A DNA stretch of 55,921 nt from an uncultured Bacteroidota bacterium (GTDB lineage: Bacteria > Bacteroidota > Bacteroidia > Flavobacteriales > Flavobacteriaceae), in the NCBI GenBank assembly GCA_902559035.1, contig CACEGG010000009.1:1-55921 (forward strand). The letters are read 5' to 3'. The translations under genes and the position numbers were made by a program. Positions 40,022-55,921 of this stretch are shown here, one piece after another (positions within the stretch are counted from its first letter, which is position 1; each line of letters begins with the position of its first letter). Under the pieces are notes generated by a model, which did no database searches, was not told the DNA's origin, and saw only the letters and a list, made by a program, of their open reading frames with translations.

Positions 40022-40174
40022 TTAATATTAGTAAGGATCTACAACCACGATTAAGAGCTTTATTGATTTTAATAATAATTTTCTTGAATAAGAGATTTTA
40101 TATAAAATGGTATGAAATTTGAAGATCGTTTAAATAATATTGTTAAATTTATGACCTTAAATATTAATCTAACC

Positions 40175-41608
40175 GTGAAAAAAGTTCTTTATTTTCTAAT
40201 AATACTCTTCATATTTTCAAGTTGTTCAAAATCAGATAGAGGTGAATTAGTTGGTATTCAAGGTAAGAAGTTCTTCCCTGATAAACCCTCTGGAATGGTA
40301 CTTGTTCCAAGCGGTTCTTTTTTAATGGGAATGTCAGATGAAGATATTGTTGGTCTTCAAAATGCGCCAATAAGTACAGTATCTGTCAAGGCTTTTTATA
40401 TGGACGAAACTGAAATCACCAATGGAGAGTACAGACAATTTGTAAATTGGGTTAAGGATTCAATAGTCAGACAGGCTTTAGCTGTAAGAGCAATGGAGGA
40501 AATTGGTGAATCACCAACTCAAGAAGAATTAGATAAGGACAATAGTATAAATTCTTTTTTTCCAATATATCAACCAATAAGTGAGGTAAGCGATGAAGAA
40601 AAAACGGGATATGAGCTTTACCGAGAACAAAATTCATTTGGAATTAATCCTTATGACAAGAAAACATTTAATCTGAACTTTGATATTGATATTATTTGGG
40701 AAAGAGAAGAGTACCCTGATTTGGCATATGCTGAAGTAATGGAAGGGGTTATTGAAGGAACTGGATTTTATTTACCCAAAGAAGAGTCTTTTAACTCAGA
40801 AAGAATATTTGATACTAAACAAATTATTTACAGTTACACCACTTTTGATGCTGAGGCTGCAATTAAGTCTAATAGTGAATCGCGAAAAGATTTTTTTAAA
40901 GAAAAATCAATAGAAATATATCCCGATACAACTGCATGGATTAAAGATTTTTCATATAGTTACAATGAACCCATGCACAACGATTATTTTTGGCATGATG
41001 CATATTCAGACTATCCAGTTGTTGGTGTTTCATGGGAGCAAGCAAAAGCTTTTGCTCATTGGAGAACAATGTATAAAAATAGATATCAGAAATTAAAATC
41101 TAAAAACGGTCAACGTGTAGCTTCTTTTAGGCTACCAAGTGAGGCAGAGTGGGAGTACGCTGCAAGAGGAGGAATTGAGTCAGGAACTTACCCATGGGGA
41201 GGTCCATATACAACAGACTCTGAAGGTTGTTTTTTGGCAAACTTTAAGCCAAATAGAGGGGACTATGCTGCTGATAATGCTCTATATACTGTTGAAGCTA
41301 AATCATACTGGCCGAACGATTATGGACTATACAACATGGCTGGTAATGTAGCTGAGTGGACAGAATCTTCTTATGATAAAGGATCATATAATTTTGATTC
41401 TGGTTTAAATCCCAATATTTCAGATTCAACTAATTTAAGAAAAGTAACCAGAGGAGGTTCTTGGAAAGATGTAGCTTATTTTTTAAGAGTTAGTACTAGA
41501 GACTATGAATACAAAGATGAAAAACGATCATATATTGGTTTTAGAACAGTTCAGGATTATCTTGGAGAAGATATAGGAATCAATGAAAATCAAAATAAAA
41601 TATTTTAA
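40175..41608 (+). CDS. gldK: Gliding/type IX secretion lipoprotein GldK
   Basis: 477 residues from the GTG at 40175. This start gives an ideal lipoprotein signal (VKKVLYFLIILFIFSSC); in-frame ATGs at 40112 and 40151 would add a polar tail. The body is a formylglycine-generating-enzyme-like (SUMF1) fold: GMVLVPSGSFLMGMSDED, YMDETEITNGEYRQFVNW, YPVVGVSWEQAKAFAHWR, RLPSEAEWEYAARGG and GNVAEWTESS, ending RGGSWKDVAYFLRVSTR and IGFRTV. GldK forms the periplasmic ring with GldN beneath the outer membrane. It heads gldKLMN. Confidence 0.94.
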   Translation: MKKVLYFLIILFIFSSCSKSDRGELVGIQGKKFFPDKPSGMVLVPSGSFLMGMSDEDIVGLQNAPISTVSVKAFYMDETEITNGEYRQFVNWVKDSIVRQALAVRAMEEIGESPTQEELDKDNSINSFFPIYQPISEVSDEEKTGYELYREQNSFGINPYDKKTFNLNFDIDIIWEREEYPDLAYAEVMEGVIEGTGFYLPKEESFNSERIFDTKQIIYSYTTFDAEAAIKSNSESRKDFFKEKSIEIYPDTTAWIKDFSYSYNEPMHNDYFWHDAYSDYPVVGVSWEQAKAFAHWRTMYKNRYQKLKSKNGQRVASFRLPSEAEWEYAARGGIESGTYPWGGPYTTDSEGCFLANFKPNRGDYAADNALYTVEAKSYWPNDYGLYNMAGNVAEWTESSYDKGSYNFDSGLNPNISDSTNLRKVTRGGSWKDVAYFLRVSTRDYEYKDEKRSYIGFRTVQDYLGEDIGINENQNKIF

Positions 41609-41664
41609 ACCATTTATTTTTAAAAGGGTCTAAAATTTATGTTAACAAGATTATAATTAAAATT

Positions 41665-42264
41665 ATGGCAAATAAAAAAAAGAAATTTTTACCAGATAAT
41701 ATCATCGAATTAATGTTCGGATTGGGTGCTTCTATTGTTATTATAGGTGCGTTATTAAAAATTACTCACGCAGATTTAATACCTGGCTATGTTACTGGAA
41801 ATACAATGCTTACAATAGGTCTTATTGTTGAGGCTGTGATTTTTGCAATTTCTGGAATACAGGGCTATATGGTAGGTGATTCATCCATCGAAGACAAAGG
41901 CTTACAAACAATTGAAGCCGAAACACAATCTTTGCAACAAGCAGTAGATCAAACAGTTTCAGGGTTAAGTTCTTTAAATAAAAATCTTACTGCAGCTACT
42001 GCGGCAACGGAATCTTTCAATGTTCCAAAGGATATAAATGAAAATTTAAATAGTTATAATGATAATTTATCTTCTGCTGCAGCTAAGCTTACTAACATAA
42101 ACGAGTTGTATGATTCATTAAACAAAACATTAAGTGAAGTGAACTCATCTACATCTTCAATGAACATTCCAGAGGGCCTCGGTGAAGAACTAAATAAAAT
42201 GAAATCCACAATTAATGAATTGAACGCTAAGTATTCTTCAATGCTTGAAGGAATGAATAAATAG
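41665..42264 (+). CDS. gldL: Type IX secretion motor subunit GldL
   Basis: 199 residues. Two N-terminal membrane helices (ELMFGLGASIVIIGALLKI and MLTIGLIVEAVIFAISGI) contain Lys32 and the buried Glu56. These match the polar helix residues implicated in proton-driven rotation in the F. johnsoniae protein. The rest is a cytoplasmic coiled-coil region (LNKNLTAATAATESFNVPKDI and later). GldL and GldM form the inner-membrane motor that powers secretion and gliding. It lies 56 bases after gldK and 3 bases before gldM. Confidence 0.95.
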   Translation: MANKKKKFLPDNIIELMFGLGASIVIIGALLKITHADLIPGYVTGNTMLTIGLIVEAVIFAISGIQGYMVGDSSIEDKGLQTIEAETQSLQQAVDQTVSGLSSLNKNLTAATAATESFNVPKDINENLNSYNDNLSSAAAKLTNINELYDSLNKTLSEVNSSTSSMNIPEGLGEELNKMKSTINELNAKYSSMLEGMNK

Positions 42265-42267
42265 TTT

Positions 42268-43956
42268 ATGGCAGGAAAATCGGATACTAGACAGAAGATG
42301 ATAAACATGATGTACCTTGTGTTTATAGCAATGCTTGCATTGAATATAAGTAAAGAGGTATTAGCAACCTTAGGTATTTTAAATGATGATTTAGAATCTT
42401 CCATAGTTGAGTTAGAATCATCATCAAAAATCAATTACGATCAGATTAATTCAAATTCTGATAAGTTGGATTATAAAATTGCAGCTGAAATGGTTGGTGA
42501 CATGAGAACTGTTTCTGATGATTTTTACAATTTTATACAAGTTGTAAAAGACTCCTTGATCAACTCTGATGAAAACAAATATTTAAAAGAAGTTTCTGTT
42601 AAATCAAATAGGGATTCAATAATTACTATGACTGATTATCAGATTATGGATAAGTCACAAATTCTGGACGAGTATCTTTTCAATGGAGACTTATACACTG
42701 AAAATGGAGATTTATTTCTTGAAAAATTTATTAATTATCCATTGTCAATAAATAATATACTTGATCAAATTACTCAAAAAGAAAACTCCTCAGAAAAAGA
42801 AACTAAAATTAATTTTGATTTTAATTCAATTAAGGATGATCTTTCAAATAGATTTAAATACTCAGAAAAAATTGTAACAAGTGAAGGAACAGAATTATCT
42901 TTTTTGAATTATAACTTTGAAGGTTTCCCAATGATTGCCTCGATTTCAAAATTGACTAAAATTCAATCTGACATAAGGTACATTGAAAATAAAGTTTTGA
43001 CACAAATTCTAAATGCTGTTCAAAATAAAGGTTTAAATTTTAATACGTTTCAAACTCTTTTAGAAACTACAAAACCTGTTTACTACACAACTGACGTCAT
43101 TGATGCTGCGGTAGTGATGGGTAAAAAAGACGAAGGTTTTAGACCTGATAAGGTTGAGTTATTTTTTAATGGAAAACCGCTGAGATCATCTGAGTTTAAA
43201 ATTGAAAGTGGAAAGGTTGTTTTAAACAAAAAAATAACCTCGCCTGGAACATATGATTTAACAGGTACTATAACTAAAAGAAATGCTGATACTCAGGAGT
43301 TAGTTTCAATTCCTGTAAATCAAAGTATAGTTGTAATCAAAGAACCAAATTCTGCAGTAGTTTCTGCCGATAATATGAAAGTTTTTTACAGAGGACTTAG
43401 AAATCCTTCTTCAATTTCTATACCTGGAGTTGCTGAAAGTTCTATAAGACCTTCAAGCAATAATGGAGAATTTATAAAACTTAGTAACGGGGGATGGGGA
43501 GCAGTTCCAACAAGTGATTTTTCAAAAAAAACAATGAAGGTTAGCGTTTCGGGTGTTCTAAATGGAAAAAGAAAACAATTTGATGGAGGAGAGTTTAGAA
43601 TTCTTGAGCCACCACCTGGTCTTGGTTCAATTAAAGTAAATGATAATTACTACAAACCAACAGAGAATATCCCAAAAAGATATTTATCTAACGGAATGAT
43701 TACAGGTAATAAACCAAAAGACTTTTTATATGATTTTATAATTGAAGTAACTTCATTTGACATTAAAGTAGGTAACTCGCCTTCAAAAACTGTGAAAGGT
43801 AACTCAGCAAGGAATAATCCAAAAGCTGTAGCAGACATAAATAGTCAAGGAAGAGGAACTGTTGTTAGAATTTCTAACATCAAAGCCAGTGCAAAAGATG
43901 GAGATTTCGTAAATCCTAACTATATTGTTAATGATTTTATAGTAATACTTGAATGA
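42268..43956 (+). CDS. gldM: Type IX secretion motor stalk GldM
   Basis: 562 residues, somewhat longer than the usual 515 or so. One N-terminal membrane helix after MAGKSDTRQKMINMMYLVFIAMLAL is the GldM hallmark. The long periplasmic stalk follows, with domains including VMGKKDEGFRPDKVELFFNGK, VSADNMKVFYRGLRNPSSISIPG and the conserved end near GRGTVVRISNIKAS. GldM carries torque from GldL to the GldKN ring. Its stop overlaps gldN (ATGA). Confidence 0.95.
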   Translation: MAGKSDTRQKMINMMYLVFIAMLALNISKEVLATLGILNDDLESSIVELESSSKINYDQINSNSDKLDYKIAAEMVGDMRTVSDDFYNFIQVVKDSLINSDENKYLKEVSVKSNRDSIITMTDYQIMDKSQILDEYLFNGDLYTENGDLFLEKFINYPLSINNILDQITQKENSSEKETKINFDFNSIKDDLSNRFKYSEKIVTSEGTELSFLNYNFEGFPMIASISKLTKIQSDIRYIENKVLTQILNAVQNKGLNFNTFQTLLETTKPVYYTTDVIDAAVVMGKKDEGFRPDKVELFFNGKPLRSSEFKIESGKVVLNKKITSPGTYDLTGTITKRNADTQELVSIPVNQSIVVIKEPNSAVVSADNMKVFYRGLRNPSSISIPGVAESSIRPSSNNGEFIKLSNGGWGAVPTSDFSKKTMKVSVSGVLNGKRKQFDGGEFRILEPPPGLGSIKVNDNYYKPTENIPKRYLSNGMITGNKPKDFLYDFIIEVTSFDIKVGNSPSKTVKGNSARNNPKAVADINSQGRGTVVRISNIKASAKDGDFVNPNYIVNDFIVILE

Positions 43957-44795
43957 AAAATAACGTAATATTAACTTTTTGTTTACTTTTTGCTTTGGGT
44001 TCATACTCACAGTCAAATATTTTGAATGCATCTAGTCCAGCAGAGATTGGTATTCAAAATTTTGATCAAAAACAAACTGACAATGATTCGTTTTTAGAAT
44101 TCGATTACATTGATGAAAGAGACATTCTTTGGTCTAAAATTGTTTATGAAAAAATTGATTTAAACGAAAAAATAAATTTCCCTTTACTTTTTCCTATCAA
44201 CGACGAAACTTACGAAAAAAACAGAAAATCACTCTGGCGAGTCTTAAAGGAAAATATTTTAAACAAAAATATCACTGAAATTTACTTTGATAGAAATGAT
44301 AATTTTAAAGATAAAATGAACTTTGAGGATGTTCTTGAGGTTGTCTCGTTTACAGAAATGATAAACGGAGTTCAAACTCCTGCCGAAGAATTAAAGTCAA
44401 TTGACATTTCTGCATACAGGATAAAGGGAATGTGGTACTTTGATAAAAGACAAGGTGAGATGAAGTACAGGCTTCTAGGTTTAATGCCAGTGGGTAAAAA
44501 TTTAAAGGATGATGATGGAAAAAATAATACGGATCTGTTCTGGATATGGTACCCAAGTGTTAGAAAAATCTTACATAAAGAACAAGTTTTCAATGACAAG
44601 AACAATGCTAATAGAATTTCATTTGACCAATTATTAGTTTCTAGAAGGTTTAGTTCATTTATTTACAAGGAAGATAATGTATATGGTGACAGAGCCATAA
44701 AAGATTATAAAAATCTTGGCCTTGAATCTATATTAGAGTCTGAAAGAATTAAAAAAGAAATTTTGGATTTTGAACAAGATATGTGGAATCGTTAA
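43953..44795 (+). CDS. gldN: Type IX secretion ring protein GldN
   Basis: 280 residues with a signal peptide (MKNNVILTFCLLFALGSYSQ). The mature part carries GldN/PorN features: FDYIDERDILWSKIVYEKIDL, NFPLLFP, RKSLWRVLKENIL, GMWYFDKRQGEMKYRLLGLMP and WIWYPSVRKIL. GldN and GldK build the periplasmic ring. It is the last gene of the operon; a terminator follows about 170 bases later. Confidence 0.94.
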   Translation: MKNNVILTFCLLFALGSYSQSNILNASSPAEIGIQNFDQKQTDNDSFLEFDYIDERDILWSKIVYEKIDLNEKINFPLLFPINDETYEKNRKSLWRVLKENILNKNITEIYFDRNDNFKDKMNFEDVLEVVSFTEMINGVQTPAEELKSIDISAYRIKGMWYFDKRQGEMKYRLLGLMPVGKNLKDDDGKNNTDLFWIWYPSVRKILHKEQVFNDKNNANRISFDQLLVSRRFSSFIYKEDNVYGDRAIKDYKNLGLESILESERIKKEILDFEQDMWNR

Positions 44796-44985: not shown

Positions 44986-45066
44986 TCTGTAATAACCAAA
45001 AAACAATAAATATTTATGTCTATTCTAACTAGACTTATTTTACTTTTTATCGAAATAAATTTAACT

Positions 45067-48000
45067 ATGAAAAATTTAATCTCCCTTATTTTTTTAACTT
45101 TTACCATGTTCGTATTCGCTCAGGAAGCCCCTGTTGCTAACGACCAATCTATTACCATCAATGAAGGTGATTCTTCAACTGGTAACTTAACAGGCTCCGA
45201 TTCTGATGGGGACGCTTTATCTTTTGCTGTCGTCGGAACCCCAAATAGAGGAACAGTGACTATTAACTCGAATGGTTCTTTTACCTACGTCCATTCTGGT
45301 GGTGAAGGTGCTTCTGATTCATTTACTTTTCGTATTACTGATGATTCTTCATCACAACTAACTAGTAATATAGCCACAGTAACTATTACTATTAATCCAG
45401 TTAATGATGCACCCGTTATAGCTGACATTTCTAAGACATTGGATGAAGGCGCTTCTGCAGAAATAAGTGTTTCAGGAACAGATGCTGAAAGTGCAATTTT
45501 AGTTTACGAGATTGTATCAGCTCCATCAAATGGAACTTTTACTTTAGACTCATCAACAGGTCTAGGTTACTATACTCACAGCGGCTCCGAAACAACTTCA
45601 GATTCTTTTGTTGTTAGAGCAAAAGAATCCACTGCTAATGTTTACAGTGCCAATGCAACTGTAACAATTACTGTAAATGCAGTTAACGATACACCACTTA
45701 GCCCAGATGGAACAGTAACTTTAGATGAAGGAACATCCAGTCAATCTGTTTCTTTTGGTGCTTCTGATGCTGAAGGATCCTCATTAACTATTAATGTATC
45801 AAGTCAAGGGAGCTTTGGTACAGCTGTAGTTTCTGGTGGAGATTTTATTTATACTCATGATGGATCTGAAACAACCTCAGATACTTTTTCTTATAGTGTT
45901 AGTGATGGAACTTTAAGTAGTACAGGAATGATCACAGTTACAATAAATCCAACCAACGATGCACCAACTGGTGTTGCTGATACTTATTATATAACTAGAA
46001 ATTCAACAACTCAAATGGCTGCTGAAATTGGAGTTTTAAGAAATGATACAGATTCAGATTCTGCTTCCACGTTATTTTCTGTATCCCAAGGTAGTACACC
46101 CCCTCAATACGGTCAATTAACTTTAAATCAAGATGGTTCTTTCTCTTACATAACAGATGGAACTAATTCTACATTCAATTCAGATTCTTTTTCTTACACC
46201 GTTTCAGATGGCTCGGCTACTAGTTCTGAAGTTACAGTGACTTTAGAAGTCGCATCTATAATTCCGGTACCAAATTCATATACTAATGCAGAGGGGGCAA
46301 CATTAACAGTAGATGCAACCAATGGTGTTGTAACAAATGATGTAGATCCAAATGGATTAACTCTTTCTGCAACAGTTGTTGCAAATCCTACATATGGAAC
46401 TTTAACATTAAACGCAGATGGAAGTTTTACTTATGAGCATGATGGAACTGAAAACAGAAAAGATTCTTTTACATACAATTTAAAAAATGCCAATGACGAC
46501 GAAAGTAAATCTACTTTTGTTGTTATAAACAATACTAATGTAAATGATACCCCAACTTCAAGTGGAACAGCATTTACTTTAAATGAAGGTGCAAGTAATA
46601 TTTTTACACCAACTTATGCGGATACTGATACTCAATTAACTGGAATAACATTCGTAATAACAACTGATGTTACAAATGGAGTTTTATCTGATAACGGAGA
46701 TGGAACCTATACTTACATTCATAATGGTGGAGAAACTACATCAGACACTTTTACCTATAGCGTTTCAGATGGTGAGTTTACAGTAGAAAATTTAGCTGGA
46801 GCAATCACTGTTACTGCAGTCAACGATATTCCAGTTGCAACCAATTTAAGCTATACTTTAAATGAAGCTGGAAGTATTGTCATTGATTATGCTGGAACAG
46901 ATGCTGAAACAGCAGCTAATGATTTAGATTTTGTTAAACTTTCTGATCCAACAAATGGATCAATAACAGTTGCTAACGGAGTTACAACTTATACTCACAA
47001 TGGATCCGAAACAACTTCAGATTCTTTTACTTTTGCTGCTTATGATGGAACAGTACAAAGTGCCGCTGGTACAGTTTCGATTACTCTTAATCCAGTAAAT
47101 TCTGCTCCAATAGTTTCTGCAGTTGCATTTACTATTAATGAAGATGCTTCAACTACTTTTAATTTAGGAGCTAGCTCTACAGAACCTGAAGGACAAACAA
47201 TGACTTATGCGATCTCAACACCAACTAATGGTACTGCATCAGTCAACGCTGGAACAGGTGAAGTTTCATACAATCACGATGGTTCTGAAACAACTACAGA
47301 TACATTTACCTTTACAGCTACTGATAGCGAAGGATTGGCTAGTGCTGCAGGAACAATTACTGTGACATTGAACCCAGTTAACGATGCTCCTGTTATTGCT
47401 GATGCTACTTTAAATGTTGATCAATACGATGAGCTTACGTTCTCTGTTCCTGGTACAGATGCTGAGGGAAGTAGCTTAACGTATACTATTATTACAAATC
47501 CATCTCAAGGAACATTAGAAGATAATGGAAGTGGAAGTTATACTTATTACAATGACTCAACAGCTGATTTAACAGGGTCTTCCACAACTGATACATTTGT
47601 AGTTAAAGCTAATGATGGAACAGTCGATAGTGCAAACAAAACTTTAACTTTTACCATTGCAGGTATTGATGAATCCATACCTCAAATTATTCTTACATCA
47701 AACACTACCTCATTAACTGAAACAGATGCTGGAGGAGGGACTTTAACTGTTAATGCTATACTTGTAAGTAACTCTTTTTACTCAAATAGAAGAGATATGA
47801 ATGCTGATCCAGTTGCAGTAGGAGCAACAAATTCACTTGGTTATAAATACATTGGTGAATATGCTGGTCATAAATACTATTATAAAACTACTAGTAACGA
47901 TTGGAAAACTAATAGTGATGCAAAAACTATGGCAGCTGCTCAAGGTGGATACCTTTGGACTATTGAAAGTGAAGCTGAACAAACAGCTGTAAGAAATTTG

Positions 48001-51000
48001 TTAGATGCTCAAAGTATAAGTAAAAATGACATATGGCTTGGATTAAATCATGATTATACTGACAAAACTTGGAAGTGGATAAACGGACATTCTTTTTCTG
48101 GCGAATATGTAAATTGGAATTCATATGATGCCAGTGAAGACTCTTCAGGTTTTATAACTAAACCTGTTGTGAAACACAATTCTAATGGTTGGCAAAATCA
48201 TGATGTAAACCAAGGTGGAAGAATTTTAATTGAATTTGATAATAATGTTACAGCTTCAAGTGATATTACATTTGAAGTGGCTGCTGCTGGATCAAGTACA
48301 GCTACAGTAACAGACGATTATACCTTAAGTGCAAGTACAATTACAATTTCTAGTGGTGCATCCTCAGGAACTTTAACAGTTACTGAAGTTGCTGATACTG
48401 TTGATGAAGCTTCTGAATCTATTATTTTAGAGGCTGGAAATGTAACTGCTGGAAGTGCAAGAATAAAGAGAAGTCAAAATTCATTGACTGTAAATCTTGT
48501 AGATAATGAAAAAACATCTGTTGCTTTTTCAACGACTAAAACCACTTTTGCAGAAGCTGATGGTGATATAGTAATGACTGCAACATTAAATAATGTTAAG
48601 CCTTTTGATACTGCAATAACTTTAACTCTAGGAGGTACAGCAACAGTTGATGAAGATTATTCTACTGATGACGATGGTTATTTAGAGGGTATTGCCTCTG
48701 GATTTAATAGTCCAGAAGGTGTTGTACAAGCTACAAGTGGTGATTATTACGTTGCGGAAGAAAGAAGAGTTTATAAAGTTGCTGCAAATGGAACAAAAAC
48801 TTTAATAGCTGGTGATGGAAATTGGGGTAATCACTCCGGAGATGCTCAACCAATTTCTCAAGCCAAGTTTAGAAATATTGGTAAAATGGTTGTCCATAAA
48901 GCAAGTGCTAGATCGGCAAGTGGTTCGGCTGATGTTATTTATCTATATGACGAAAGAGTTATCAGAAAAATAGATTTAGGAAATAGTTTAATTTATTACA
49001 TAACTGGTAGTGGAGATTGGACTGAAAATTTTGTGAATGGAACTTTAGCAGAAGCTAAGTTTAGATCAATTCGAGATATTACACTTTCTAATGATGGTAA
49101 TACGCTGTATGTTATTGATGAAAATGCGATCAGAGCAATTGATATGGCTAATGATGCTGTCTCAACAATAGCTGGTAATAGAGATTGGGGTTATCAAGAT
49201 GGAAGTTTATCTTCTTCAAGATTTGAAGGCCCTCAAGGACTTGCAATGGACTCAAGTGGAGATTTAATTGTAAGACAATACGGAAAACTTAGAAAAATAG
49301 ATATTGATGGAAATTCAGTAACTACCTTACTCGAAAATGACTGGAGTTCAGGTGATCTTTTTATAGACTCTTCTGATAATGTTTATTTTGCTTCTGAGGA
49401 TAGACATTACATTTATAAGTATTCAAGTGAAGGGGAATTTACTAAAATTATTAGTAGCGAAAATGATTCTGGAACTGTAGATGGTGTTTTAAAAGATGCT
49501 AAAATTGAGCGTCCAATGGATATTATATTAAATTTAGCAGGAGATTTAGTCTTTGTTGAAAGAAATTCTACTGGTTCACTTAGAAAAATAGACTTTGTAA
49601 ATAAACTTAGAATTCCCGCAGGTCAACAAACAGGTACATTTACTTTATCAATTAATGATGACGGGTCGTTTGAAAATGATGAAACAATTAGTGTTGTTGT
49701 TGCTAGTGCAGAAAATATAAACTTTAATTCTGATCCTGTTCTAGCACTAACTATTGATGGCAGTGATAATACTTTGGCAGGATACGATTCTGCACCTGAG
49801 GTTACTTTAGTCTCTGCAACTTCAAATATTGCAGAGGAAGGAGGATCAACAATTTTAACTTTTCAGCTAGGCGATGCATCAGAATCTGGAGCTAGACAAG
49901 ATATGAGTGAGGGATCTAAAGGGGAATATGCCTATTTAGGAGCAATTGGAACTCATAAATACTATATGTCATACAATTATGAAACATGGACTGAAGCTAG
50001 AGATGTAGCTACTGGACTTGGAGGCTATCTTGTTGCAGTTAATGATCAAACAGAAAATGATTGGATTAGAGCTAGAATGAAAGATGCTGGTTACGAGTGG
50101 AATAGTGTATGGATTGGATATACTGATGAATCAAGTGAAGGAATTTTTGAATGGGCTAACGGAAGTGATTCAACTTATGAAAATTGGCAAAATGGTGAAC
50201 CTAACAATTCTGGAGGAGAGGATTATACGGAACTTATGAGTAATGGCAGATGGAATGATTTACCTAATAATAATACTCAACTTTATGTTATTGAATTTAG
50301 TGGGACAGTATCCTCATTACCAACTGTTATTACTTATACTGCAACCGAATCTGAAACAGGAGAATTCACACTTCCAACAGTAGCTCCAATTACTATTGCA
50401 GCTGGATCATCAAAAGCTACTCTAACTATTTCTGCAAAATCAGATACAGATCCCGAAGGTTCAGATAGTGTAACTTACGCAATTACTGATGTTACCAATG
50501 GAACAGCAGGATCAAAAAGTAGTACAACCGTAAAAATTGATGATAATGACCCTGAAACAGCAACTATAGCTGCAATTTCAGATCCAACATTTGCCGAAGA
50601 AGCAGGCGAATTAGTTATTACTGCAACAATTCCAAATGCAAAAACATTTGCTAGTTCATTAGGCGTCACTATAAATCAAGGAGGCTCTGATACAGCAACT
50701 TTTGGTACTGACTTTGAAATTACAGAACTAAATAATGTGTCAACATTGGCTGGTTCAGGTACTTCAAATTATTCTGATGGAACTGGAGACTCAGCTTCTT
50801 TCAGCGCACCAGGTTCAATTGTTTCCGACAGTAGTGGAAATTTATATGTTGCCGACGGTGATAATAATGTAATTAGAAAAGTAACAACAGCAGGTGTTGT
50901 TACAACATTTGCTGGAAACGGTAATTGGGCTCACGATAGAGAAGAAGGGTTTAGAACTGATGTAGGTTTTGCTAGACCTAGAACTCTTGTGTTCAATTCA

Positions 51001-54000
51001 GCTGGTGAATTATTCGTGTTTGAGGATGGAAGACATAGAATTTCTAAAATTAATACGTCTGGAAATGTAACTAGAGTGATAGGAGATTACAACGGATCTG
51101 GATGGGGTGATACTGATGGAGATAAAACACAGGCACAGTTCAGTAACATCTATGGAATGGCCTTTGATTCATCTGGAAACCTTTTTGTTACAGATAGTAG
51201 AGACGGTGGAAAAATTAAGAAAATTACTTTTGATCCAGGATCAGGTGATGCAAGAAGTACAACTTTTGCTGGAACTGGTAATTGGGGAGAAATTGATGGT
51301 CCAGGAAATGAGGCAGAATTTAGAAACCCAGGAGGTATTGTAATTGATGCAAATGACATTATATATGTAGCTGATAGACACAATCATAAAATTAGAAAAA
51401 TCACCGCTTCTGGTGTAGTAAGTACATTTGCTGGCGATGGATATGGTGATCAAGATGGATCTTTACTTAATGCAAGATTTCAGCAACCTTTTGGGATGTC
51501 TGCTGATGCAAGTGGAGATATTTATATCGCTGAATCTGATGGTAATAGAATTAGAAAAATTGATATAAGTGAAGGATCTGTTTCTACTGTTGCTGGGACT
51601 GGTACCTATGGTCATTTAGACAGTACCTTATTAAGTTCTCAATTTAAACGTCCTGAGGGAGTTTTAGCAACTACATCAACTATTTATATAGCTGATACTG
51701 ATAATCATAGAATAAGACAAATTGAATTACTACCCTCAATTAAAATACCTGCGGGAAGTACTTCAGGTACATTAACATTGAAAGGAATAGATGATTTCAA
51801 ATTTGAATCTGACGAAACGGCAACTGTTTCTATTTCTAGTTATACAAATCTTGTAAATTCAAGTATTGCAGATATAGCGACAACGGTTACCAGTCAAGAT
51901 GCTGCTCCAGTTGCAAGAATTTCAGTTGAAGATGATGTATTGGATGAGCAAGGCGCAGGAACAACAACTGTTAATGTCTCTTTATCTGATGCTTATTCAA
52001 GTTCTAAAGTAGATATGTCTCCATCTGATAAGGCAGATTACTATTATTTAGGAACACACAATGGTTCTAAATATTATGCTTCAAAAAATAATGAACATTT
52101 AAATTTTGAAGATGCTAATTCTCGTGCAACAGCACTTGGTGGTCAATTAGCTATTCTAACTTCCTCTGGAGAACAAGAAACTGTTGTAAACGGAATATAT
52201 GCTCAAGATCCTGAATTTTCTGCTGATAATAATATATGGCTAAATCACTGGATTGGGTATTATTTAGATGATAATGAAAATTGGGTATGGAACAATTCCG
52301 TAACATCTAATTATGAAAACTGGACTGATTCTTGGCAAAGAGACGAAAATTGGAACAGAGAAGCAGGATACTTGCATACTAACGGTCTATGGCACAGTAG
52401 TGAAAAAAGATCACATAGACGTTTTGTAGTTGAATTTTCATCTGCAATTTCTGATTCAGATACTGTGGTTGATCTTTCATTTGCTGATGCAAATTCTAGT
52501 GGAACTACTTTGGAGGGAGCAGATGGTGCTGACTTTTCTTCAAATCTAACTGACGGCAAACTAACTATTACTGCTGGTAATCCAAGCGGTTCATTAGTTT
52601 TAACTGCTGTTGATGATAATATTGATGAATCTATAGAACAATTTACTGTGAGTTTAGATGGTGCAACAGGAGCAACAGTTGATACAGATACTTCTAATAC
52701 TTCTGTTAATGTAACAATAAATGATAATGAATTAACTACTGTCACATTAGCTGTTAAAGACGGTGTTTCAACAATTTCAGAAGTTGACGGACAAGCAACC
52801 TTAGAAGCAACACTAACTAATGCAAAATTAAACCCAGTTGAAGTAAAACTCGCGTTTGCTGATTCAGGAAATTTAGTTGCAATATTTGGACAAGATTACG
52901 ATTCTTCTGATTTAAATGCAGTTTCTACTTTTGCTGGTAGTGGTAATACTGGTTATCTGGATGGTGATGCTGAGGATGCAGAATTTTCAAATCAGGTTAG
53001 AAATATTATTTCTGACTCATCTGGAAATATTTATGTTGCCGATACTGAGAACAGAAGAATTAGAAAAATAGACACACAAGGTAATGTTACCACCTACAAT
53101 AAAGGAGCTGATAATTATGACACTCAGTTAGATGGTCCAACTGGAATGGCATTCGATGGTGCCGGAAATATGTACGTTACTGAAGAATGGAACAATAGAG
53201 TCTCTAAAGTAGATCCGTCAGGAAATGTAACAAGGTTTGCCAATCCTAGTGGTCAAGGTGGAAGTGATAATGGTGATGTAAGTTCTGAAACAAGATTTCA
53301 AGGGACACAAGATGTTGCTTTTGATTCACAAGGAAATATGTTTGTTTTGGAGTGGCAAAGGATAAGAAAAATTGAATTTTCTGGATCTACTGCCGTTTCA
53401 AGCGATTTTGTTGGTAACGGAAGTTGGGGTAACCAAGACGGAACTGGTTCTGAGGCTAGGTTTGGTCAAGTACAAAATATAGTAATTGATTCGAACGACA
53501 ATATTTTCTTTGCTGATGAATCTCATCAAATAATCAAGAAAGTTACACCTGAGGGAGTTGTTACAACAATTGCTGGTAATGGTAACTGGGACTATGCCGA
53601 TGGATTTGGTACTAATGCCAAGTTTAGACAACCTTCTTATTTAGCAATAGATTCTGATGATAATTTATATGTTTCCGATAGAGAAAACAATAGAATTAGA
53701 AAAATTGAGCCGCAATCTGATGGTAAATATAAAGTTAGTACTATAGCTGGTAACGGAAATTATGGCTATGTCGATGGAACTGCTGATCAGGCCGAGTTTA
53801 AACAAGTTACATCACTTGTAGAATTTAGCGGAACTCTTTATGCTTTTGATAGGGACGAAAATAAATTAAGAAAGTTACTGTTAAGTCCAGTCATGAGTAT
53901 TCCTGCTGGAGCGAAAACGGCTTCTTTTAATATTTCTGGAATTGACGATACTTCTTTTGAATCTACTGAAGCAATCAAAGTTACACCAACTGCTAGTGGA

Positions 54001-55921
54001 GCGAATTTAGCTTCTTCTGATGCATTGGAACTAAGTATTACAAGTGATGAAAGAATGCCTAAAGTAGTAATTAAATCAAGTGATACAGTTCTTGATGAAA
54101 ATGCCGGAACTTTAAGTTTTGATGTTGTTTTAGTGGATGCTGCCGGTGCTGCTGCAAACTGGACAAATACTGAACTTCCAACAAATGCTGAATCAGACTT
54201 TGATTTTATGGGAGAATTTGATGGACATAAATACTATTTTTCAAGAAGTAGATATACTTGGGCTCAAGCAAAACAAAATGCCTTAGATCTTGGAGGACAA
54301 ATGCTTGTAATTGAAGACGCAGAGGAAAATGATTTTGTTGGTCAAATAATGATTTATGATGGAACTTGGATAGGACATAGTAGACCAACCGAAGCTGATG
54401 CTTGGTCAAATATTTATGGATCAGATACTTACACAAATTGGGCACATGTTAACAGTGGAGGAAATGCAAATGATTTAACTGGTTATGCTTTGACTTATGG
54501 GAATGAATGGTACAATCACAGTGAAAATGATCAAAGACATTTTATTTTAGAATATGGTCCTGTTGCATCTTCTGAACTTGAATCTTCAGTTCTTGTTGAA
54601 TATAATGGAGATGCTACAATTGGAAATGGAAACGATTATACTACATCCTCAACGATTGCTACAATTCCTGCTGGCTCACAGAAAACGACAATAACTTTAA
54701 CTGGACTTGATGATAGTATTGAAGAACCAATAGAGCAAATTAATATGAATTTGGCTTTAAGATTTTCCGAAATAGAAGTTGATGAGGATGGAAATCCAAA
54801 AAGTATCTCCAATGTAGAACTAGGTGAAACAACTTCTCTAAATGTTCAGGTAAGTGATGACGAAGTGCCTGTAGTGACATATACGACATCTGGTACAGAA
54901 ATTTCTGAAAATAATGGAAGTGTAACTATTACTGCTACACTTTCTAATGAAAAACTTGACCCAACAACGGTTACATTATCTCTTGATGGAACATCAACAG
55001 CTTTAGTTGATTATAGTGTTTCGTCAATTTATAATAAATCAACTATTGCAGGTGTTCAAGGTGAATATGGATCAAGAAATGGATCCGGAGATCAGGCAAG
55101 ATTTGGAAGAATTGAAGGAATGGTCAATTATTTAGACAATACCTTCTTAATAGCCGACAGAGATATGCATACTATTAAACGAGTTAGTTATGATGGTACT
55201 GTTTCAAGTTTTATAGGAAAAGATTACCAATGTATGGGTGGGACTGGAGATGCAAATGATGTTGGTATTTGTTCTCCTGATGCAATAGCAGCTGACCTTT
55301 CAAATGGTAATGTATTTTGGACTCAAGGAAGAGATATTTATGGTTATAATGCATCTGACAATCAAATTTCATTATTATATGATGGTGATTCTGATAATTT
55401 TGGATGGATGGGTGGAATTACTGTTTTAAATTCTGAAATTTATTTTTCAGATAGAGAAAGAGATGTTTTATATAAATTATCATGGAATGGATCAGATTTT
55501 GATAAATCTGTTGTTGCTGGAGTTGAGAACAATGGGAAAAATTGGGATATTTGGGATTCGAATGCACCGACAACTGTTTCCGCCAGTGAACCTTCACTTA
55601 GTGCCCCCTCATATTTAACAGCTGATCCTGTAAATAATAAAATTTACATAGGTAATGGTCACAGAGAATGGAATAACGATTGGTATAGAAGATCAATTGT
55701 TCAAGTCTTAGACTTGAATAATAATACAGTATCAATATTAAGAAATACTTCGATTTTCTATGCTGTATCAATGGGTTACATGCCTTTCGGACAAGTAGCT
55801 GTCGATTCATCAGGTACAGTTTATTTACCATCTGATTATGGATTAGTTGCAGTTGTTAAATTTACTGATACTGGAGAAGACTATGTCTCTAATACGATTG
55901 GGGAAGGAACTAATGAGGAAT
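45067..55921 (+). CDS. Giant multidomain surface protein (cadherin-like, Calx-beta, lectin, propeller), 3' partial
   Basis: 3,618 complete codons, frame open to the window edge. The signal peptide MKNLISLIFLTFTMFVFA ends before Gln19. Residues 19-871 hold nine cadherin-like repeats. From Pro872 a unit of about 705 residues repeats at 1577, 2281 and 2998. Each unit has a Calx-beta domain interrupted by a C-type-lectin-like domain (about 915-1059, 1614-1745, 2318-2460, 3040-3165). The next Calx-beta domain is interrupted by an NHL-type propeller (about 1200-1515, 1888-2221, 2617-2940, 3320 onward). Cysteine is almost absent; I see only 3389 and 3402. Placement behind gldKLMN suggests type IX export and an adhesive role, both inferred; the C-terminal sorting domain is not in the window. 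Confidence 0.92.
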   Translation, partial: MKNLISLIFLTFTMFVFAQEAPVANDQSITINEGDSSTGNLTGSDSDGDALSFAVVGTPNRGTVTINSNGSFTYVHSGGEGASDSFTFRITDDSSSQLTSNIATVTITINPVNDAPVIADISKTLDEGASAEISVSGTDAESAILVYEIVSAPSNGTFTLDSSTGLGYYTHSGSETTSDSFVVRAKESTANVYSANATVTITVNAVNDTPLSPDGTVTLDEGTSSQSVSFGASDAEGSSLTINVSSQGSFGTAVVSGGDFIYTHDGSETTSDTFSYSVSDGTLSSTGMITVTINPTNDAPTGVADTYYITRNSTTQMAAEIGVLRNDTDSDSASTLFSVSQGSTPPQYGQLTLNQDGSFSYITDGTNSTFNSDSFSYTVSDGSATSSEVTVTLEVASIIPVPNSYTNAEGATLTVDATNGVVTNDVDPNGLTLSATVVANPTYGTLTLNADGSFTYEHDGTENRKDSFTYNLKNANDDESKSTFVVINNTNVNDTPTSSGTAFTLNEGASNIFTPTYADTDTQLTGITFVITTDVTNGVLSDNGDGTYTYIHNGGETTSDTFTYSVSDGEFTVENLAGAITVTAVNDIPVATNLSYTLNEAGSIVIDYAGTDAETAANDLDFVKLSDPTNGSITVANGVTTYTHNGSETTSDSFTFAAYDGTVQSAAGTVSITLNPVNSAPIVSAVAFTINEDASTTFNLGASSTEPEGQTMTYAISTPTNGTASVNAGTGEVSYNHDGSETTTDTFTFTATDSEGLASAAGTITVTLNPVNDAPVIADATLNVDQYDELTFSVPGTDAEGSSLTYTIITNPSQGTLEDNGSGSYTYYNDSTADLTGSSTTDTFVVKANDGTVDSANKTLTFTIAGIDESIPQIILTSNTTSLTETDAGGGTLTVNAILVSNSFYSNRRDMNADPVAVGATNSLGYKYIGEYAGHKYYYKTTSNDWKTNSDAKTMAAAQGGYLWTIESEAEQTAVRNLLDAQSISKNDIWLGLNHDYTDKTWKWINGHSFSGEYVNWNSYDASEDSSGFITKPVVKHNSNGWQNHDVNQGGRILIEFDNNVTASSDITFEVAAAGSSTATVTDDYTLSASTITISSGASSGTLTVTEVADTVDEASESIILEAGNVTAGSARIKRSQNSLTVNLVDNEKTSVAFSTTKTTFAEADGDIVMTATLNNVKPFDTAITLTLGGTATVDEDYSTDDDGYLEGIASGFNSPEGVVQATSGDYYVAEERRVYKVAANGTKTLIAGDGNWGNHSGDAQPISQAKFRNIGKMVVHKASARSASGSADVIYLYDERVIRKIDLGNSLIYYITGSGDWTENFVNGTLAEAKFRSIRDITLSNDGNTLYVIDENAIRAIDMANDAVSTIAGNRDWGYQDGSLSSSRFEGPQGLAMDSSGDLIVRQYGKLRKIDIDGNSVTTLLENDWSSGDLFIDSSDNVYFASEDRHYIYKYSSEGEFTKIISSENDSGTVDGVLKDAKIERPMDIILNLAGDLVFVERNSTGSLRKIDFVNKLRIPAGQQTGTFTLSINDDGSFENDETISVVVASAENINFNSDPVLALTIDGSDNTLAGYDSAPEVTLVSATSNIAEEGGSTILTFQLGDASESGARQDMSEGSKGEYAYLGAIGTHKYYMSYNYETWTEARDVATGLGGYLVAVNDQTENDWIRARMKDAGYEWNSVWIGYTDESSEGIFEWANGSDSTYENWQNGEPNNSGGEDYTELMSNGRWNDLPNNNTQLYVIEFSGTVSSLPTVITYTATESETGEFTLPTVAPITIAAGSSKATLTISAKSDTDPEGSDSVTYAITDVTNGTAGSKSSTTVKIDDNDPETATIAAISDPTFAEEAGELVITATIPNAKTFASSLGVTINQGGSDTATFGTDFEITELNNVSTLAGSGTSNYSDGTGDSASFSAPGSIVSDSSGNLYVADGDNNVIRKVTTAGVVTTFAGNGNWAHDREEGFRTDVGFARPRTLVFNSAGELFVFEDGRHRISKINTSGNVTRVIGDYNGSGWGDTDGDKTQAQFSNIYGMAFDSSGNLFVTDSRDGGKIKKITFDPGSGDARSTTFAGTGNWGEIDGPGNEAEFRNPGGIVIDANDIIYVADRHNHKIRKITASGVVSTFAGDGYGDQDGSLLNARFQQPFGMSADASGDIYIAESDGNRIRKIDISEGSVSTVAGTGTYGHLDSTLLSSQFKRPEGVLATTSTIYIADTDNHRIRQIELLPSIKIPAGSTSGTLTLKGIDDFKFESDETATVSISSYTNLVNSSIADIATTVTSQDAAPVARISVEDDVLDEQGAGTTTVNVSLSDAYSSSKVDMSPSDKADYYYLGTHNGSKYYASKNNEHLNFEDANSRATALGGQLAILTSSGEQETVVNGIYAQDPEFSADNNIWLNHWIGYYLDDNENWVWNNSVTSNYENWTDSWQRDENWNREAGYLHTNGLWHSSEKRSHRRFVVEFSSAISDSDTVVDLSFADANSSGTTLEGADGADFSSNLTDGKLTITAGNPSGSLVLTAVDDNIDESIEQFTVSLDGATGATVDTDTSNTSVNVTINDNELTTVTLAVKDGVSTISEVDGQATLEATLTNAKLNPVEVKLAFADSGNLVAIFGQDYDSSDLNAVSTFAGSGNTGYLDGDAEDAEFSNQVRNIISDSSGNIYVADTENRRIRKIDTQGNVTTYNKGADNYDTQLDGPTGMAFDGAGNMYVTEEWNNRVSKVDPSGNVTRFANPSGQGGSDNGDVSSETRFQGTQDVAFDSQGNMFVLEWQRIRKIEFSGSTAVSSDFVGNGSWGNQDGTGSEARFGQVQNIVIDSNDNIFFADESHQIIKKVTPEGVVTTIAGNGNWDYADGFGTNAKFRQPSYLAIDSDDNLYVSDRENNRIRKIEPQSDGKYKVSTIAGNGNYGYVDGTADQAEFKQVTSLVEFSGTLYAFDRDENKLRKLLLSPVMSIPAGAKTASFNISGIDDTSFESTEAIKVTPTASGANLASSDALELSITSDERMPKVVIKSSDTVLDENAGTLSFDVVLVDAAGAAANWTNTELPTNAESDFDFMGEFDGHKYYFSRSRYTWAQAKQNALDLGGQMLVIEDAEENDFVGQIMIYDGTWIGHSRPTEADAWSNIYGSDTYTNWAHVNSGGNANDLTGYALTYGNEWYNHSENDQRHFILEYGPVASSELESSVLVEYNGDATIGNGNDYTTSSTIATIPAGSQKTTITLTGLDDSIEEPIEQINMNLALRFSEIEVDEDGNPKSISNVELGETTSLNVQVSDDEVPVVTYTTSGTEISENNGSVTITATLSNEKLDPTTVTLSLDGTSTALVDYSVSSIYNKSTIAGVQGEYGSRNGSGDQARFGRIEGMVNYLDNTFLIADRDMHTIKRVSYDGTVSSFIGKDYQCMGGTGDANDVGICSPDAIAADLSNGNVFWTQGRDIYGYNASDNQISLLYDGDSDNFGWMGGITVLNSEIYFSDRERDVLYKLSWNGSDFDKSVVAGVENNGKNWDIWDSNAPTTVSASEPSLSAPSYLTADPVNNKIYIGNGHREWNNDWYRRSIVQVLDLNNNTVSILRNTSIFYAVSMGYMPFGQVAVDSSGTVYLPSDYGLVAVVKFTDTGEDYVSNTIGEGTNEE
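45121..47679 (+). repeat. Nine tandem cadherin-like repeats in the giant protein
   Basis: Residues 19-871 comprise nine units of 90-100 residues. Most open with a TLNEGAS-type strand, carry D..G or DAEG acidic turns and NGTVT...GSFTYTHDG, then a GSETTSDTFTYSVSDG stretch, and close with VTITINPVNDAP. These are bacterial Ig/cadherin-like (VCBS/CHDL) domains that usually bind calcium at their junctions and build a rigid stalk. Recurrent PVNDAP-type linkers mark the borders. Confidence 0.88.
47680..49794 (+). repeat. Super-repeat unit 1: split Calx-beta with lectin, then with propeller
   Basis: Residues 872-1576. The lectin-like insert (about 915-1059; AGHKYYYKTTSNDW, AAAQGGYLWTIESEAEQ, NDIWLGLNHDYTDKTWKW) has WQN where WND is expected and no EPN. 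The second Calx-beta strand set begins SVAFSTTKTTFAEADGD, breaks after ATVDEDYS, contains a propeller to about 1515, and resumes LRIPAGQQTGTFTLSINDDG. Confidence 0.8.
49795..51906 (+). repeat. Super-repeat unit 2: split Calx-beta with lectin, then with propeller
   Basis: Residues 1577-2280. The lectin-like insert keeps EPN (1711-1713) and WND (1729-1731), the calcium and sugar signature. The propeller insert (about 1888-2221) shows regular NHL blades such as GNLYVADGDNNVIRKV and FAGTGNWGEIDGPGNEAEF. The host domain breaks after TATFGTDFEI and resumes IKIPAGSTSGTLTLKGIDD. Confidence 0.82.
51907..54057 (+). repeat. Super-repeat unit 3: split Calx-beta with lectin, then with propeller
   Basis: Residues 2281-2997. 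The lectin-like insert (about 2318-2460; NGSKYYASKNNEHLNFEDA, ALGGQLAILTSSGEQ, NIWLNHWIGYYLDD) lacks both EPN and WND. The host of the propeller breaks after AIFGQDYDSS and resumes MSIPAGAKTASFNISGIDD at about 2944. Confidence 0.8.
54058..55921 (+). repeat. Super-repeat unit 4, cut by the window end
   Basis: Residues 2998 onward. The lectin-like insert (about 3040-3165; FDGHKYYFSRSRYTWAQAKQ, LGGQMLVIEDAEEND) lacks EPN and WND. The next Calx-beta breaks after STALVDYSV and a propeller begins STIAGVQGEYGSRNGSGDQA. This propeller differs from the others: blades are longer and less regular, and it carries the only two cysteines I see (3389, 3402). Confidence 0.75.

Follow-up and report, generated by a model that had tools for sequence, protein, structure and literature searches.

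Organization of the giant open reading frame

The window analyzed in this study is a stretch of 55,921 nucleotides from an uncultured bacterium of the Flavobacteriaceae (Bacteroidota; contig CACEGG010000009.1). A single open reading frame (ORF; 45016-55920) encodes 3,635 residues and runs off the end of the contig (55,921 bases). After an N-terminal repeat region, this giant ORF consists of four units of ~700 residues. In each unit, a C-type lectin-like domain (CTLD) interrupts a first Calx-beta-type domain and an NHL-type propeller interrupts a second (hereafter the CTLD host and the NHL host). The ORF in the window thus holds eight interrupted host domains, the last of which is cut by the contig end. 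The product is very probably a giant surface adhesin exported by the type IX secretion system (T9SS), whose Calx-beta-type stalk domains nest CTLDs and NHL propellers at two fixed loops. An earlier note on this DNA had stated that both insertions recur in each unit, which holds for the four units except that the fourth propeller is truncated by the contig end; the first host domain was found to start at residue 889, not at residue 872 as the note had it. The features of the ORF, all on the forward strand, are listed below, where N-half and C-half are the host segments before and after an insert and profile positions refer to the profile of intact domains described in the next section.

45016..47679 (+): N-terminal part, signal-peptide-like start and tandem bacterial cadherin/VCBS-type repeats (translation; NF012211 tand_rpt_95, TIGR01965 VCBS)
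47680..47787 (+): unit 1, CTLD-host N-half, strands A-B (scored as part of the profile, not alone)
47788..48234 (+): unit 1, CTLD without EPN/WND (Lectin_C, 32.8 bits)
48235..48507 (+): unit 1, CTLD-host C-half (profile 21-112, 53.8 bits; start of the match overlapping the final strand of the CTLD)
48508..48663 (+): unit 1, NHL-host N-half, strands A-C (profile 3-54, 16.1 bits)
48664..49596 (+): unit 1, NHL-type propeller (NHL, 28.6 bits)
49597..49770 (+): unit 1, NHL-host C-half, strands D-G (profile 58-109, 23.4 bits)
49789..49893 (+): unit 2, CTLD-host N-half (profile alignment; AlphaFold2 strands 4-9, 13-15, 20-27)
49894..50295 (+): unit 2, CTLD with EPN and WND (Lectin_C, 56.8 bits)
50296..50547 (+): unit 2, CTLD-host C-half (profile 36-113, 35.1 bits; AlphaFold2 strands 179-251)
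50548..50718 (+): unit 2, NHL-host N-half (profile 8-66, 15.5 bits; AlphaFold2 strands 267-296)
50719..51729 (+): unit 2, NHL propeller (NHL, 93.5 bits; Foldseek)
51730..51900 (+): unit 2, NHL-host C-half (profile 59-104, 23.8 bits; AlphaFold2 strands 650-701)
Unit 2 in residues of the protein: CTLD host 1592-1626 and 1761-1844; NHL host 1845-1901 and 2239-2295
51901..52005 (+): unit 3, CTLD-host N-half (boundary drawn manually behind the C-half before it)
52006..52434 (+): unit 3, divergent CTLD without EPN/WND, absent from the Pfam matches (alignment)
52435..52728 (+): unit 3, CTLD-host C-half (profile 20-112, 46.0 bits; the genome's one PF03160 match at E<=0.001)
52729..52902 (+): unit 3, NHL-host N-half (profile 8-60, 10.8 bits)
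52903..53883 (+): unit 3, NHL propeller (NHL, 59.3 bits)
53884..54054 (+): unit 3, NHL-host C-half (profile 57-112, 19.7 bits)
54055..54165 (+): unit 4, CTLD-host N-half (alignment; boundary likewise drawn manually behind the C-half before it)
54166..54552 (+): unit 4, CTLD without EPN/WND (Lectin_C, 25.7 bits)
54553..54861 (+): unit 4, CTLD-host C-half (profile 37-92, 29.8 bits)
54862..55017 (+): unit 4, NHL-host N-half (profile 4-57, 23.6 bits)
55018..55920 (+): unit 4, propeller-like stretch truncated at the contig end (recognized by aligning it with orthologues; absent from the Pfam NHL matches at E<=1)

The second Met of the giant ORF (residue 18) resembles by eye the start of the orthologous proteins, and the N-terminal repeats of the orthologue L021 matched Cadherin_4/Big_9.

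Split points of the host domains

The profile of intact Calx-beta domains (116 columns) was built from 31 uninterrupted domains, 27 of other proteins and four of L023, a giant protein from a genome of the same genus; none belonged to the split family. It replaced an earlier iterated Calx-beta profile that had taken in CTLD-host C-halves and drifted. The four kinds of half were cut from a 29-row alignment (A2) as 27, 28, 27, and 25 rows, and 40 column shuffles of each served as the control. In profile-profile comparisons, the two halves of the CTLD host matched positions 3-38 and 38-115 of the intact profile, and those of the NHL host matched positions 5-56 and 62-116. The scores of the N- and C-halves were 26.9 and 80.0 for the CTLD host (best shuffle, 12.4 for each) and 47.1 and 65.5 for the NHL host (best shuffles, 16.6 and 14.8), with hhalign probabilities against the 31 intact domains of 72.9 and 98.4% and of 96.3 and 98.0%, respectively. 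Because the positions are complementary and the scores exceed those of all the shuffles, the halves of each host tile one domain with little overlap or loss.

Around the three complete propellers of the window, the N-terminal part of the host ends at profile positions 54, 66, and 60 and the C-terminal part starts at positions 58, 59, and 57, with 312, 326, and 320 residues between them. In the ten family frames, including that of the window, both halves were scored around 22 of 27 propeller gaps (N-half end, 54-73; C-half start, 52-59); the N-half was without a score in the remaining five in this single-sequence scan. The interruption of Calx-beta-type domains by an NHL propeller at a fixed point, as the earlier note had proposed, is therefore very strongly supported at the sequence level. 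The CTLD host resumes at profile positions 21, 36, 20, and 37 in units 1-4. Its earlier split, also proposed in the note, is less strongly supported: the C-side is clear and the N-half is weak.

The host sequence matched both the Calx-beta (PF03160) and LapA (PF20579) families of Pfam below their cut-offs. The best PF03160 match in the genome reached 23.3 bits, compared with a cut-off of 27, and no rejoined host exceeded 21.8 bits. The Calx-beta matches covered profile positions 48-117, 20-118, and 33-96 in units 1, 3, and 4, and unit 2 had none at E<=1; matches beginning inside the profile are as expected for an interrupted domain. When the NHL hosts were rejoined, one LapA match spanned the join in each of the three (29.0, 18.8, and 19.1 bits), and the permuted order gave such a match in 0/3; Calx-beta matched only the first of the rejoined hosts (21.8 bits). 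As Pfam scores the rejoined NHL hosts higher as LapA, "Calx-beta-type" is a safer name than "Calx-beta," by which the note had called the hosts.

Structure prediction and conserved acidic residues

The AlphaFold2 model of unit 2 (707 residues, 29 rows) had a mean predicted local distance difference test (pLDDT) score of 86.7 and a predicted template modelling (pTM) score of 0.64. It placed strands of the CTLD host both before (4-9, 13-15, and 20-27) and after (179-251) the lectin, and those of the NHL host both before (267-296) and after (650-701) the propeller; confidence in the host blocks (about 56-88) was below that in the propeller. A second model, consisting of a propeller host and the next lectin host (728 residues, 19 rows; mean pLDDT 83.5, pTM 0.75), likewise placed host strands on either side of the inserts. 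The fold search proposed in the earlier note together with structure prediction identified the propeller: by their titles, the best 50 of 1,331 Foldseek rows for the unit-2 model were propeller proteins and teneurins.

Acidic residues of the kind that bind Ca2+ in Calx-beta domains are conserved in part, with invariant columns in both halves of both hosts. Nine of 15 columns checked were acidic in every row, namely columns 16 (27/27), 219, 223, and 252 (28/28 each) of the CTLD host and columns 270 (27/27), 308 (28/28), 669 and 673 (26/26 each), and 676 (27/27) of the NHL host. In the NHL host, for example, Glu270 and Asp308 precede the propeller, and Glu673 and Glu676 follow it.

A paralogue as a natural control

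The 3,872-residue open frame of L023 has five NHL-split domains alternating with four uninterrupted domains, and the latter occupy the place of the lectin host in the window protein. The uninterrupted domains scored 95.9-103.2 bits on the Calx-beta profile, of which they are themselves part, and all five propeller splits of L023 lie at 49-55 | 55-57. Aligned to these four uninterrupted domains alone, the halves occupied positions 1-34 and 37-115 (CTLD host) and 2-54 and 57-115 (NHL host), with hhalign probabilities of 22.8, 96.9, 93.8, and 95.9%, each above its 40 shuffles. We also noticed a plastocyanin-like stretch at the start of L023 (residues 65-138; Copper-bind, 18.2 bits, cut-off 21.2).

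L023 bears on an alternative in which the domains are circularly permuted and unsplit, such that in each linker the C-half of one host folds with the N-half of the next and the modules alternate with whole domains. The linkers would be long enough for this, with 92-99 residues from NHL to CTLD and 141-156 from CTLD to NHL. Such an arrangement would, however, leave an unpaired half at both ends of the array, where the N-half of unit 1 follows a cadherin-type repeat and the last C-half precedes FG-GAP repeats (L021). In L023, a whole uninterrupted domain stands between a C-half and the next N-half in 4/4 cases, which speaks against permuted folding of the linkers because successive split domains are separated by a complete one. 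The AlphaFold2 models, in which only the pairs of the split arrangement were included, also show host strands in both halves. We therefore regard permutation as very improbable. Complete Calx-beta domains in tandem with the modules between them, the outcome that the earlier note had named as contrary to its proposal, do not fit either, as the NHL-to-CTLD linker has only 92-99 residues and contains the motifs of a C-half before those of an N-half.

Nesting at two fixed loops, as the earlier note had claimed, is thus borne out by the tiling, the L023 control, the propeller split that is constant wherever both halves scored (22/27 gaps), the acidic residues that are invariant in both halves, and the predicted strands on either side of each insert. 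Several results nevertheless weigh against it. In the orthologues L020 and L021, C-halves were recovered in 8/8 places each, but N-halves exceeded 3 bits in only 5/8 (L020) and 4/8 (L021), the others being placed by alignment. The CTLD-host N-half reached 3.2-4.0 bits in single sequences of two orthologues only, was the weakest of the halves against the L023 domains, and was reached by neither Calx-beta nor LapA in any of the four rejoined CTLD hosts (Pfam). Rejoining brought no gain in total Pfam bits (29.0, 18.8, and 19.1 for rejoined NHL hosts vs. 29.5, 17.6, and 18.5 for permuted ones), the two being similar because separate stretches add up. AlphaFold2 confidence was lowest in the CTLD-host N-half (residues 30-34, <50) and at the end of the last C-half (blocks of 66 and 56). 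The packing of the halves into one domain with a shared sheet is inferred, as is the pairing of strands between them. Conservation was lacking in six of the 15 acidic columns, including the presumed C-D loop column of the CTLD host (0/28), and the best 50 of 1,331 Foldseek rows were uninformative on the hosts. Finally, the window protein is cut before its C-terminus, so that T9SS export is read from L021.

The weakness of the CTLD-host N-half leaves some room for another arrangement, in which nesting is confined to the propeller. The CTLD would then precede a shortened Calx-beta-type domain whose first strand is the final strand of the CTLD, and the ~36 residues ahead of the CTLD would serve as a linker. 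Single-sequence matches of the CTLD host often begin inside that strand (at position 21 in unit 1, at 20 in unit 3, and at 13-24 in several of the relatives), Pfam misses the N-half even after rejoining, and hhalign gave it only 22.8% against the L023 domains. The N-half profile, however, outscored 40/40 shuffles against both the intact profile and the L023 domains (26.9 and 21.5), and did so at the positions that a shortened domain would lack (3-38 and 1-34). Moreover, Glu16 shows no variation (27/27), as is also the case for its NHL-host counterpart Glu270, AlphaFold2 places three strands in the N-half, and matches to mannose-binding proteins extend to residue 170-171, which makes the last CTLD strand part of the CTLD itself. 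A shortened domain is, in our judgment, improbable, and a CTLD nested in a split host is preferred.

The inserted modules

Lectin_C was matched above its Pfam cut-off in units 1, 2, and 4, and NHL in units 1, 2, and 3. The CTLD of unit 3 and the propeller of unit 4 had no Pfam match at E<=1 and were assigned by alignment with the CTLDs and propellers of the other units, respectively. EPN and WND, the motifs of mannose-type C-type lectins, are present in the unit-2 CTLDs of 7/7 rows and in 0/20 rows of units 1, 3, and 4. As these motifs occur there only, the unit-2 CTLD is the predicted sugar binder, probably of a mannose-type sugar, and the array would comprise a single CTLD predicted to bind sugar with Ca2+, alongside three lectin-like domains that may differ in specificity. 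Among the unit-1 CTLDs, that of L036:6724-8955 has ~50 additional loop residues found in this row alone, and that of L038:6724-8865 has a near-EPN sequence (GEPGN) and no WND.

The lack of EPN/WND in the CTLDs of units 1, 3, and 4 (20/20 rows) and the failure of Pfam to recognize the unit-4 propeller would also suit an array that is largely decoration, its repeats spread by duplication or recombination and most of its modules no longer binding. We consider this quite improbable, given that the four units occur in identical order in all four loci with the whole array (L036, L037, L038, and L041) and that EPN/WND is kept in 7/7 unit-2 rows that are 46-88% identical to unit 2 of the window.

Orthologues, export, and genomic neighborhood

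The units were found in 9/22 genomes of the genus, including that of the window (E<=1e-25); their absence from the others means little because most of those genomes are incomplete. The relatives include the uncultured Bacteroidetes AG-447-O05, AG-313-I14, AG-319-A09, and AG-895-G08, the Flavobacteriaceae NAT161 and FRAM18_bin141, and FRAM18_bin219 (Cryomorphaceae BACL29); judging from the names of the genomes, they are probably marine. The C-terminal end of L021 contains FG-GAP repeats, a dockerin type I match, and a T9SS type A sorting domain (Por_Secre_tail, 41.4 bits, cut-off 27; TIGR04183, 33.6 bits, cut-off 23). No RTX family was found in its last 1,370 residues (E<=0.01).

Genes of the gldKLMN type, the core of the T9SS/gliding machinery, lie directly upstream of the giant gene (40112-44795):

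40112..41608 (+): gldK-like, FGE-sulfatase domain, T9SS operon upstream (domain search; the name gldK is presumed from the context)
41665..42264 (+): gldL-like, 199 residues (position and likeness to orthologous loci, no family search)
42268..43956 (+): gldM (GldM domains)
43953..44795 (+): gldN (GldN, 205.5 bits)

A gldN-type sequence lies just upstream in all seven loci with enough DNA (the window, L019, L020, L021, L022, L024, and L026). Only in the window does this rest on a family search; it rests on likeness of ORFs in L021, L022, L024, L026, and L037 (which covers the contig stretch of L020) and on short motifs in L019 and L020. The orthologous gene is broken into two or more frames in L019, L024, and L026, and the frame of L020 stops before a sorting domain, through either assembly error or decay.

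A second type of giant protein was observed in the genus (L027:891-7958), with SprB repeats and a CHU_C T9SS signal. Between two of its repeats is a CTLD-like stretch with EPN and WND, recognized through similarity and by eye, which has no Pfam match at E<=1e-5. L028, L029, and L034 have starts or matches similar to this protein.

Distribution outside the genus

The initial search for relatives matched 473 stretches, from which 79 loci were kept. Complementary Calx-beta-type halves around a gap were found in 0/72 of the loci outside the family (L042-L113) with a single-sequence profile, for which reason split domains were likely missed. Searches of 395 genomes of the phylum (six with a match, including that of the window) and 299 genomes of the family (16 with a match, three of them in the genus) yielded outside the genus, among the matches listed, only ones without the lectin part. 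A profile scan of L143-L145, L159, L162-L168, and L171-L174 found no split halves outside the genus. In 395 genomes of the class, 32 had a match, including that of the window; none of the 33 CTLDs in 29 outside loci was convincingly flanked by Calx-beta-type halves, and two flank matches had 7.1 and 7.3 bits.

Other, apparently nested domains were noticed in these searches. Seven flanks among the 33 class CTLDs were read at length, and in five loci (L178, L181, L189, L190, and L193) the CTLD is apparently nested in a HYR-type immunoglobulin-like (Ig-like) domain. The residues after the lectin matched Pfam HYR from 44-46 to 81 above the cut-off in 5/5, and those before it matched HYR 2-40 below the cut-off in 1/5 (L178). 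A crude pattern for the HYR C-half was found after the CTLD in 3/33 and missed two that were confirmed by Pfam. In L171, from a genome of the family (minus-strand ORFs of 1305 and 1241 residues), NHL propellers lie between two parts that by eye resemble one domain, which we take to be of the cadherin/He_PIG type. These HYR/CTLD and cadherin-type/NHL cases suggest that splitting of Ig-like hosts may be common in giant proteins of Bacteroidota, where nesting may be wider.

Comparison with known systems

The hybrid domain of integrin beta, which hosts the I-like domain, is also an Ig-like host with a ligand-binding module in a loop, but it belongs to an animal receptor, carries one module, and is allosteric. 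Teneurin and NHLRC2 were among the best 50 of 1,331 Foldseek rows and have NHL propellers of the same fold as that of unit 2. LapA, as well as BapP of Pseudoalteromonas tunicata, resemble the window protein in having tandem Calx-beta-type sandwiches in a large surface protein, and BapP also has a propeller; this propeller is, however, a separate N-terminal domain, and the available part of the source mentions no interrupted Calx-beta repeats (PMC12153261).

The closest parallels are the RTX adhesins, for which split Ig-like domains carrying binding modules have been published (PMC12077191; PMC10865825), and the statement in the earlier note that nothing comparable had been described was too strong. 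As far as the available parts of these sources go, RTX adhesins share with the window protein an Ig-like domain whose sequence is interrupted by a binding module; the ends of the module lie together, so that it projects from the rod, and one protein holds different modules. In the window protein, discontinuity of an Ig-like domain around a module is indicated by sequence and profiles, less strongly for the CTLD host. The RTX hosts, described there as BIg-like, are split after the first strand (the "first beta-strand" of AhLap; in FrhA, 12 residues precede the insert and 106 follow it), whereas the Calx-beta-type hosts in this study are split after strand B or C. RTX adhesins are exported by the type I system, in contrast to the T9SS here; L021 ends in Por_Secre_tail rather than in RTX repeats and a type I secretion signal. 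Unlike in RTX adhesins, two kinds of module alternate four times at two loops. Neither the nesting of a CTLD or propeller in a Calx-beta-type domain nor the two-loop design was found in the literature searched, outside which most subscription papers lie, and this is no proof of absence. The principle of split Ig-like hosts is already known; the window protein differs in the host family, the two loops, the alternation, and the T9SS.

Proposed architecture and implications

In the proposed architecture, Calx-beta-type Ig-like domains of the distal stalk would serve as split hosts, with the first host of every unit holding a CTLD in what is probably the B-C loop and the second holding an NHL propeller in what is probably the C-D loop. 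After each insert, the chain would return and complete the host sandwich, so that the stalk would stay continuous, probably as a rod stiffened by bound Ca2+, and the modules would bud out sideways. These two loops lie at opposite poles of an Ig-type sandwich, the B-C loop at the N-terminal one and the C-D loop at the C-terminal one. Each propeller and the lectin of the unit that follows would thus be expected, on grounds of topology and not of data, to flank one common domain junction. It is conceivable, and we propose it tentatively, that composite propeller-lectin heads form at every second joint, near the presumed Ca2+ sites, with no module at the junction inside a unit. In weak and confounded support of this, the model of a propeller host with the next lectin host had a higher pTM than that of one unit (0.75 vs. 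0.64), although the two models also differ in rows (19 vs. 29) and mean pLDDT (83.5 vs. 86.7).

Because of its lectins, its propellers, its T9SS export, and its gldKLMN neighborhood, the protein is best read as a giant surface adhesin that is perhaps used by the gliding machinery. It may serve in the attachment of cells to glycans or to particles and could act in gliding; its genomic neighborhood makes it a candidate for a surface adhesin linked to the gliding/T9SS machinery. The two-loop rule would also offer a design for engineered rods that bear side modules of two kinds. Nested modules of this type escape domain searches, as PF03160 gave one sub-threshold match in the genome for eight interrupted hosts in the ORF of the window. 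If splitting of Ig-like hosts is common in the giant proteins of Bacteroidota, many of these proteins would have been parsed wrongly, and a systematic inventory of their binding heads would become possible.

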